A stretch of DNA of 64,000 nucleotides from Hyalangium ruber (GTDB lineage Bacteria; Myxococcota; Myxococcia; Myxococcales; Myxococcaceae), in contig NZ_JAXIVS010000010.1 in the NCBI RefSeq assembly GCF_034259325.1, positions 124,001 through 188,000 on the forward strand, in the 5' to 3' direction. Numbering within the stretch: the stretch's first letter is position 1; the number at the start of each line of letters is the position of its first letter. A program made the position numbers and the translations under genes. Shown piece after piece: positions 18,189 through 60,854 of this stretch. The notes beneath the pieces are model-generated. The model saw only the letters and a list, made by a program, of their open reading frames with translations. It did no database searches and was not told where the DNA came from.

Positions 18189-18668
18189 ATGGCGACAGCC
18201 AACGGTGGCGACGTGATGCTTCAACTGCTCCAGGGATTCCAGGAGTTCCAGCATGGATTCCAGGAACTCAGTCAAGGAGTCCAGGAACTCAAGCAGGGAT
18301 TCCTGGGGCTCGGGCAGGAAGTCCAAGAACTCCGGCAGGAAGTCCGGATTTCATTCAAGCGACTCGGCGATCGGGTTGGCGCGCTTGAGGGACGGATGGA
18401 ATCCCTTGAGGGACGGATGGAATCCCTTGAGGGACGGATGGAATCCCTTGAGGGACGGATGGAATCCCTTGAGGGACGTGTGGGCTCACTTGAGGGACGT
18501 GTGGGCTTACTCGAAGGTCAAGTGGGTACCCTTCAGCACTCGAACCAGCAGATCCTGGGCTACATCAAGCGCATTGGGAAGATGCTAGGCAAGGTCGCTC
18601 AGGACCGCGATGCGCTGACCGAGCGCGTGGATGATCATGAGCGGCGCCTGATCATCCTAGAGAAGTAG
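18189..18668 (+). CDS. Coiled-coil protein built from 21-bp heptad-coding repeats
   Basis: GGAGG precedes ATG 18189 closely. The 159-residue protein has no signal peptide or Cys. Residues about 15-55 are degenerate seven-residue units (pattern GFQEFQH, GFQELSQ, GVQELKQ, EVQELRQ). Residues about 66-114 are seven further units (LEGRMES, then LEGRVGS and LEGQVGT). The remaining helix (about 118-159) continues the coiled coil. The whole protein is thus a single alpha-helical coiled coil that probably forms a homo-oligomeric rod. Its function is unknown, and the repeats make length polymorphism likely. A TATAGT at 18123-18128 may be its -10 element. Confidence 0.75.
   Translation: MATANGGDVMLQLLQGFQEFQHGFQELSQGVQELKQGFLGLGQEVQELRQEVRISFKRLGDRVGALEGRMESLEGRMESLEGRMESLEGRMESLEGRVGSLEGRVGLLEGQVGTLQHSNQQILGYIKRIGKMLGKVAQDRDALTERVDDHERRLIILEK
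18384..18530. repeat. Seven tandem 21-bp repeats within coding sequence
   Basis: Units begin at 18384, 18405, 18426, 18447, 18468, 18489 and 18510. The first four are identical; units five and six differ in the last 10 bases (GTGTGGGCTCA/TTA); the seventh is diverged. Unit length equals seven codons, so copy-number change keeps the frame and alters coiled-coil length only. Confidence 0.95.
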
Positions 18669-18685: not shown

Positions 18686-20302
18686 TCAGCGCTCGAAGAC
18701 GACCTGCCCCCCCACCACCGTGAGCATCACCTTCACATCGCGGATCTCCTCGGGAGGAATCCGGGTGATGTCGCGCTCCAGCAGCGTGAAGTCCGCCAGC
18801 TTCCCCTCTTCCAGGGTGCCCTTGTCCTGCTCCTCGAAGGAGGCATAGGCACTGCCTGAGGTGTAGGCCCGAAGCGCGTCCTCGACGCCGATTCGCTGCT
18901 CGGGCACCCATCCGCCCGGGTGCTCGCCATCCAGCGTGCGGCGGGTGACGGCGGCGTAGATGCCTTCCAGCGGCGTGGGCGGTGCCACGAACCAGTCACT
19001 GCCAAAAGCCAGCCGCGCGCCCGTGTCCCGCAGCGAGCGGAACGCATACGTCGTCTTCGCCCGCTCGGGACCGATGACCCTCTCCGCCCAGCGTCCGTCA
19101 TCAATGGCGTGGTAGGGCTGCATGCTGGCGATGACACCCTGCGCGGCAAAGCGCGGCACGTCCTCGGGCGCGATGTGCTGCGCGTGCTCGATGCGGAAGC
19201 GGCGATCCCTCGGGCCGTTCTCCGCCGCCACACGCTGGAAGATGTCGAGCTGGAGGCGAATCGCACGGTCTCCAATGGCATGCACCAGCACGTGCAGCCC
19301 TGCCTTGTCCGCGCCGGAAGTCCACCGATAGAGGTCCTCTGGTGTGTTCACCAGCAGCCCCGTGTCGTTCGGCGCGTCGGTGAAGGGCTCCAGGAAGGCT
19401 GCCGTGTGCGAGCCGAGCGAGCCATCCACGAAACCCTTGAGCGCGCCGATGCGCAGCCACGCATCTCCCCGCCCGCCCTGGGCCACGGTGTCCCGCAGGC
19501 GCTCCCAGGTATCCAGCGGCATGGCGACATAGATGCGCGTGCGCAGCGCTCCCGCGGCGTGCGCGCGCTCGAAGACCGCCAGGTCCTCCCACGTCCCCAT
19601 CCCCATGTGCTGCACCGAGGTGACGCCGTTGGCGGCCACGTGGCGCATGGCCGCGTCCAGGGCCCGAGCGCTCAGCTCCGGCGCGGGTTCAGGTACCACA
19701 CGGCCCACCAGCGCCATGGCCTTGTCCTTGAGCACGCCCGCAGGCTCGCCTCCCGGGCCTCGGACGATGGTGCCTCCCTCTACCTCCCGCGTCGTGGCCG
19801 TCACTGCCGCCGCACGAAGGGCCGCGCTGTTGGCCAGGCCCATGTGCCCGTCCAGCCGGCTCACCCAGACCGGATGCTCGGGCGTCACGGCGTCGATCCA
19901 ATCGCGGCGGGGCAGCTCGCCGCCCCAGTTCTCGTGGTCCCAGTCTCCTCCCGTAATCCAGGTGCCCGGAGGCACCGTGGCGGCGAACGCCTGGATGCGG
20001 CGGATGAACTCCTCCGGCATCTTCGCATCCCGGAGCTGCACCGAGGCGAGCCGGAAGCCCGCATCGAGGAAGTGCAGGTGGGCATCATTGAAGCCCGGCA
20101 CCAGCAACCGTCCCTGTGCATCGATGACGCGGGTGTCAGCGCCCACCTGCCGGAACACCTCGGCGCTGGAGCCTACCGCCACCAGCCGCTCCCCACTCAC
20201 GGCGAGAGCCTCGGCCCACGGCTGCCGGGAGTCTCCCGTCCACACCCGCGCATTGAGCACCGCGAACGTCACCGGCTCCGAGGAGACAAGGCGCGTTGTC
20301 AT
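18686..20302 (-). CDS. YtcJ/metal-dependent amidohydrolase (amidohydrolase 3 family)
   Basis: ATG 20302 (GGGAG 7 bases upstream) is favoured over GTG 20308; product 538 residues. The metal motif N-D-A-H75-L-H77 follows the N-terminal beta-sandwich. Later TIM-barrel ligands are visible in HAIGDRA, RIEHAQHI and AFGSDWFV. The GGDWDHENW and DGSLGSHTAAFLEPF segments are diagnostic of the YtcJ-like group of cytoplasmic zinc hydrolases on amide or carbamoyl bonds. The C-terminal barrel closes with KLADFTLLERD. It lies 12 bases after the DUF819 gene in the same leftward unit with an epimerase, suggesting a peptide- or amide-degrading operon. Confidence 0.88.
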   Translation of the reverse strand: MTTRLVSSEPVTFAVLNARVWTGDSRQPWAEALAVSGERLVAVGSSAEVFRQVGADTRVIDAQGRLLVPGFNDAHLHFLDAGFRLASVQLRDAKMPEEFIRRIQAFAATVPPGTWITGGDWDHENWGGELPRRDWIDAVTPEHPVWVSRLDGHMGLANSAALRAAAVTATTREVEGGTIVRGPGGEPAGVLKDKAMALVGRVVPEPAPELSARALDAAMRHVAANGVTSVQHMGMGTWEDLAVFERAHAAGALRTRIYVAMPLDTWERLRDTVAQGGRGDAWLRIGALKGFVDGSLGSHTAAFLEPFTDAPNDTGLLVNTPEDLYRWTSGADKAGLHVLVHAIGDRAIRLQLDIFQRVAAENGPRDRRFRIEHAQHIAPEDVPRFAAQGVIASMQPYHAIDDGRWAERVIGPERAKTTYAFRSLRDTGARLAFGSDWFVAPPTPLEGIYAAVTRRTLDGEHPGGWVPEQRIGVEDALRAYTSGSAYASFEEQDKGTLEEGKLADFTLLERDITRIPPEEIRDVKVMLTVVGGQVVFER

Positions 20303-20314
20303 GGACACTCTCCC

Positions 20315-60353: not shown

Positions 60354-60452
60354 GGCCCGAGAATCCGTCCGCTGGAGATCACTGCGCCTCGGGGGTGTTG
60401 GGGTGCATCGGGAGTGCGGTTAGGCTGGGGCCTTCCTCAAGGAGGAATCCAT

Positions 60453-60854
60453 ATGGTGACCGAGGCCCGTCCGCCTTCCGACGTGAACGCGCAGCCCCCT
60501 GAGAGTCCCCCCGCCGCCGCCGCTGCCCCCGAGCCGCAAGCGCCCCTGACCGCCAACACCGAGGGTGCGGTCAGCGCGAAGAAGCAGGGCAAGGCGGGGG
60601 CACGCGCCAAGAAGGGCCGCACCGCGGCCAAGCGCAAGCCCGAGAAGAAGGCGCCCGCCAAGAAGGCGGCGAAGAAGGCAGCGGCCAAGAAGGGCGGCCA
60701 GTTCAAGTCCGCCGCCAAGAAGTCTTCCGCCAAGCGCACCGCGGGCAGCAAGCCCAAGGCCGCGCAGAAGAAGAACCCCAAGAAGAAGGCCCCAGCGAAG
60801 AAGGCGGCTCCGGCCAAGAAGAAGACCACGGCGAAGCGCACCGCCCGGCGCTAG
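60453..60854 (+). CDS. Histone H1-like Lys/Ala-rich protein
   Basis: AAGGAGG precedes ATG 60453 by 8 bases. The 133-residue protein has an acidic/Pro-Ala N-terminus (to about residue 40) and a strongly basic C-terminal two thirds of PAKKAAKKAA-type repeats. This matches the disordered H1-like tail of bacterial histone-like proteins such as Hc1/Hc2 and the basic domains of several myxobacterial proteins. It probably binds DNA or RNA non-specifically. It is 99 bases downstream of the HelD-like gene, and a hairpin lies past its end. Confidence 0.8.
   Translation: MVTEARPPSDVNAQPPESPPAAAAAPEPQAPLTANTEGAVSAKKQGKAGARAKKGRTAAKRKPEKKAPAKKAAKKAAAKKGGQFKSAAKKSSAKRTAGSKPKAAQKKNPKKKAPAKKAAPAKKKTTAKRTARR

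Follow-up and report, generated by a model that had tools for sequence, protein, structure and literature searches.

Does the repeat-filled open reading frame (ORF) in a 64-kb stretch of Hyalangium ruber DNA (64,000 nucleotides, hereafter the window) encode a protein, and what does the number of its repeats mean? The initial annotation had described a coding sequence made almost entirely of 21-bp units, each of them one heptad of a coiled coil, and had proposed that such a gene could serve as a molecular ruler or as an antigenic variant. The features of the gene, in window coordinates, are the following:

18189-18668, plus strand: ORF of the coiled-coil rod protein, with ATG start, 159 aa; its frame is conserved in relatives
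18189-18257, plus strand: conserved N-terminal module MATANGGDVMLQLLQGFQEFQHG (alignment, N-terminal HMM), overlapping the first two diverged units
18228-18353, plus strand: six diverged 21-nt units, consensus xQGFQEL, coiled-coil register 1
18324-18374, plus strand: register break (4-residue stutter) between the arrays, around VRISFKRLGDR, where the a/d phase passes from 2 to 6
18375-18521, plus strand: seven tandem 21-nt units of the MESLEGR type, register 2 (TRF, unit-by-unit reading)
18384-18478, plus strand: perfect 21-nt periodicity over 95 nt, 4.5 identical copies (unit-by-unit reading)
18540-18665, plus strand: conserved C-terminal module SNQQILGYIKRIGKMLGKVAQDRDALTERVDDHERRLIILEK (C-end search without the repeats, alignments)

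The start codon is immediately preceded by a Shine-Dalgarno-like GGGAGG. No sigma-70-like promoter was found for the gene, which means little since the genome is high-GC. TRF reported 5.5 copies of a period-21 repeat at 18384-18499, with a match of 94%, and at 18234-18345 it detected weaker arrays of period 21/42. Read unit by unit, the tandem array runs VGALEGR, four consecutive MESLEGR, VGSLEGR and VGLLEGQ, and the diverged array LQGFQEF, QHGFQEL, SQGVQEL, KQGFLGL, GQEVQEL and RQEVRIS. These readings agree with the seven in-register tandem units, and the five to six diverged units before them, that had been counted in the initial annotation. The four identical copies were also borne out: the period of 21 is exact from 18384 to 18478 and, read from there, yields four copies without a mismatch, and in the MESLEGR register three copies match at 21/21 positions and the fourth at 20/21. 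This stretch is the most recent expansion in the gene, as had been proposed, and its perfect copies point to recent duplication of the unit by slippage or unequal crossing-over. The repeat structure therefore stood, and only the wording "almost entirely" was slightly too strong, the units making up ~315 of 480 nt, or about two thirds at the DNA level. The unique part comprises ~13 N-terminal and ~42 C-terminal codons, and the C-end, although outside the repeats, retains a hydrophobic heptad pattern. A search for the 21-nt unit elsewhere in the window found none, and shuffled sequence gave 0 matches. At 60414-60854 on the plus strand the window contains a Lys/Ala/Pro-rich ORF with KKAPAKKAAKKAAAKK repeats and TRF arrays at 60644 and 60780, which resembles bacterial histone H1-like tails.

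Since 21 is a multiple of 3, the antisense frames across the gene are also open, and the coding frame therefore needed proof. When the query was limited to the 47 unique residues at the C-terminus, homologues appeared in other genera (genomes G112, G114, G128 and G118, 5.7e-5 to 5e-3), and the proteins of G112 and G114 (109 aa from the aligned start) have the N-end, the frame and the C-end in common with the window protein. Comparison of these two gave a dN/dS of 0.22 in the rod frame, with a minimum of 0.13 in the C-end, and values over three pairs of relatives were 0.22-0.33. The other frames in the G112/G114 pair contained stops or showed no synonymous excess; one antisense frame reached 0.26 but with 4 stops. 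Comparative sequence evidence thus indicates that the frame and the ends of the rod gene are under purifying selection in relatives, and that the ORF is real. A minisatellite that is not a gene and is open by chance in several frames would agree with the open antisense ORFs and with the GC content (58% versus 69% for the window), but the start, the ends and the frame are conserved across dozens of genomes and the synonymous excess in relatives falls in the rod frame while the others carry stops, and we give this possibility practically no credit.

In order to collect homologues we relied on searches with the conserved ends instead of the whole protein; most relatives returned by the whole-protein search owed their match to the repeat, and several turned out to be antisense or unrelated frames. 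An HMM of the N-terminal end matched in 57 ORFs, and members of the family share the layout MAxAxGGDVMxQLLQEFRE, heptads, GRMLNxLA...R.D..E.R. Most full-length members measure 98-326 aa, and the heptad array between the conserved ends is highly variable. The window protein carries the N-terminal MAxAxGGDVMxQLLQ module (domain E ~1e-10 with an N-end HMM whose seeds include this protein) and, according to the C-end-only search and the alignments, the C-terminal module RI..ML...RVD..ERR..LE. The family is present in 13-16 genera of the window's bacterial family. With a profile of the ends, 54 of the 96 genomes from that bacterial family (13 genera) gave a match. When more matches were taken, the count for the class was 66 of 147 genomes, 63 within the bacterial family and 3, all weak, outside it; some of the weaker matches in both tallies are possibly repeat-driven. 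At L129:3096-3422 (G133:C17, minus strand) there is a 73-aa member that lacks the C-terminal motif, a copy that is probably decaying because an earlier match there contained an internal TAA. We found no published description of the family in the open-access literature and no match to the protein in a phage collection, and plasmids gave only two matches, both weak and repeat-driven.

The window protein belongs to a family without a Pfam description and confined, as far as seen, to the Myxococcaceae. Its matches in Pfam, NCBIfam and PHROG are generic coiled coils, and the PDB profile matches are generic or designed ones. The heptad coiled coil DUF7310 (PF23991) reaches 53.9 bits where the cut-off is 40, with the best match in the repeat (residues 78-122), and FlaC_arch (PF05377), an archaeal motility accessory protein, scores 37.7 bits against 27.8, its best match covering only residues 62-97 of the repeat. 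DUF7310 was rejected as the identity of the family, the match reflecting the repeat: when four members were rescanned against Pfam, three of them (L086, L091 and L107) had no match at 0.001 and the fourth (L101) had coiled-coil matches only below threshold, DUF7310 among them.

The coiled-coil rod proposed from the heptads was supported at the level of prediction. The a/d core positions are occupied by M/V and L, and AlphaFold2 predicts one continuous helix over residues 6-158 (pLDDT 92.8), a rod of ~23 nm if fully helical, at 0.15 nm per residue. Between its conserved ends the window protein is 53 residues longer than those of G112 and G114, that is, seven heptads plus four residues. The extra four are located at the hydrophobic phase shift between the two arrays and fit a stutter, a tolerated discontinuity of coiled coils. 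By eye we found no signal peptide, anchor or hydrophobic N-terminal segment, and an identity as a surface antigen of the M-protein type found no support. The suggestion of an antigenic variant is likewise unsupported and unlikely, there being no apparent membrane segment and no sign of a pathogen or of a surface protein.

The rod gene of the window is the only family member found in its genome, where its neighbours are a gene for an EamA transporter on one side and, on the other, a convergent gene for an amidohydrolase. Across many species, rod genes are syntenic at two loci. At the first, the gene has an M16 peptidase on one side and a metallophosphoesterase/SppA pair on the other (Pfam assignments); at the second, it lies downstream of a different conserved gene. 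No rod gene was found at the M16/SppA locus of the window's own genome (L143:6200-7000), where the place is apparently taken by a minus-strand ORF resembling a Cu/Zn superoxide dismutase. In genus g17, two relatives beginning MMEM.GGDVMQVLLHEFRDFRQQ (L136:2407-3381 and L137:2425-3096, from G016 and G032) apparently occupy the M16/SppA locus; they measure 311 and 213 aa, a difference of 98 residues or 14 heptads. The amidohydrolase beside the window gene (18686-20308, minus strand, Amidohydro_3 family) has its best relative, at only 49% identity, in another taxonomic family (G051), and genomes of its own family contain paralogues at ~40-43%, which suggests horizontal transfer or loss of this neighbour. 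A search through the amidohydrolase for syntenic relatives of the window locus returned none, only paralogues of ~40-49%. We found no conserved operon partner near the rod genes. These occur at several loci that have nothing in common, and no recurrent partner points to a pathway.

The two syntenic loci allowed the length of the rod to be compared among orthologues. At the first locus, the distance between the conserved ends takes eight values among the 16 orthologues of genus g26, every one of them 1 mod 7; at the second, the ten spans among 22 orthologues of genus g23 are all 5 mod 7. If in-frame indels of any length were allowed and each distinct span counted as independent, the chance of a single residue class would be ~1e-6 for the first locus and ~2e-8 for the second. 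Genes next to the rod gene in these genomes served as a control and yielded 44 distinct indel events, only one of which is a multiple of seven. Fitch parsimony on neighbour-gene trees requires at least 11 length changes at the first locus and at least 14 at the second, and where flank identity is at least 93%, 13 of 17 pairs differ in rod-protein length (for example, 126 versus 168 aa at 93.9% flanking DNA identity). These data strongly support that the length of the rod varies between species in exact multiples of seven residues. Non-heptad steps do occur as well, since the long (275, 289) and short (71, 78) forms of the MAMA subgroup are one residue class apart and the window protein departs from G112 and G114 by more than whole heptads. 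At the first locus in g23, where four orthologues have 108, 115, 312 and 326 aa, long and short forms differ by one residue class.

Taken as a whole, we consider it probable that the product is a cytoplasmic coiled-coil spacer with two functional ends, whose length drifts heptad by heptad. It would be a homo-oligomeric and probably parallel rod in which the conserved N- and C-terminal modules, as the functional parts, presumably bind partners or each other, and the heptads between them may form a stiff spacer, ~23 nm long in the window protein. Units of 21 nt would be gained and lost by slipped-strand mispairing or unequal crossing-over. Only whole heptads would persist, because these hold the hydrophobic seam in register, and the length of the rod would therefore drift fast while the ends are conserved. 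The exact length of such a rod probably matters little.

Slippage of 21-nt units could by itself, with no selection for register, be behind the quantisation. The array would then be a slipping minisatellite under little length constraint, its steps only mirroring the unit, as the perfect 95-nt repeat of the window gene and the 2-3.4 exact 21- or 42-nt copies of other members would suggest, and the same mechanism has been proposed for the DUF16 genes of Mycoplasma pneumoniae (PMC3472980). However, in many length-variable orthologues the exact copies number fewer than 1.6 and the period-21 identity is no more than 35-50%, and these still differ by whole heptads, which makes selection for the register of the seam likely as well; in addition, the ends and the frame are under purifying selection. 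We regard a pure mutational by-product as unlikely, although it is partly compatible with the drifting spacer.

A somewhat smaller chance remains for the molecular ruler, in which the length of the rod would set a physical distance (e.g. between two complexes or membranes) tuned in each species. The stiff predicted rod with conserved ends, the quantised lengths and the equal length of some close species (108 aa in G101, G098 and G102) could be read in this way, but orthologues at one syntenic locus, between unchanged neighbours, range from 108 to 326 aa and most of the close pairs are unequal, and coiled coils in which length is conserved are instead depleted of indels, as in the synaptonemal complex (PMC8598163). 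The ruler suggested in the initial annotation is thus disfavoured. The more general idea that length is biologically read, heptad-quantised lengths setting spacing or pairing specificity as a fast-evolving trait under selection in social bacteria, seems to us doubtful. Social bacteria need kin recognition, and rods that are hypervariable between close relatives might pair only with partners close to them in length or register and thereby label kin or species, but we saw no signal peptide or membrane segment and no toxin or receptor partner nearby, and such a recognition tag is very improbable.

We therefore return to the spacer of drifting length and to the systems with which it can be compared. 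A repeat protein of Dyadobacter sp. CY261 (L032) has GRMESLEGRMESLE tandem heptads and 51% identity in the best segment, but by eye its N- and C-ends do not match those of the window protein, and the likeness is probably convergent repeat sequence. The closest precedent in behaviour is found in the DUF16/RepMP1 proteins of M. pneumoniae (MPN127, MPN137, MPN501 and MPN524), in which 21-nt tandem repeats encode coiled-coil heptads, and whose repeat number differs from strain to strain by one or two heptads, slippage being the proposed cause (PMC3472980). Both groups encode coiled-coil heptads in 21-nt repeats and have no assigned function, with no homology beyond the coiled-coil resemblance: the 25 top-scoring families of the window protein do not include DUF16 (PF01519), and one relative scores 23.6 bits against a cut-off of 40. 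The core elements and the recombination network of RepMP1 are not seen in the rod family, which differs further in that its changes occur across species, reach up to ~30 heptads and leave conserved ends. The behaviour of the heptad array is therefore already known from M. pneumoniae; the rod family is new, being without a Pfam entry and yet present in most sampled genomes of the two largest genera compared. With the same ends, many lengths and one genomic place, it provides a natural coiled-coil series that permits a direct test of whether the length of a coiled coil matters for its function. It also offers a clean case of indels evolving in heptad steps, in a rod that appears free to change its length, in contrast to the synaptonemal complex, whose coiled coils conserve theirs.
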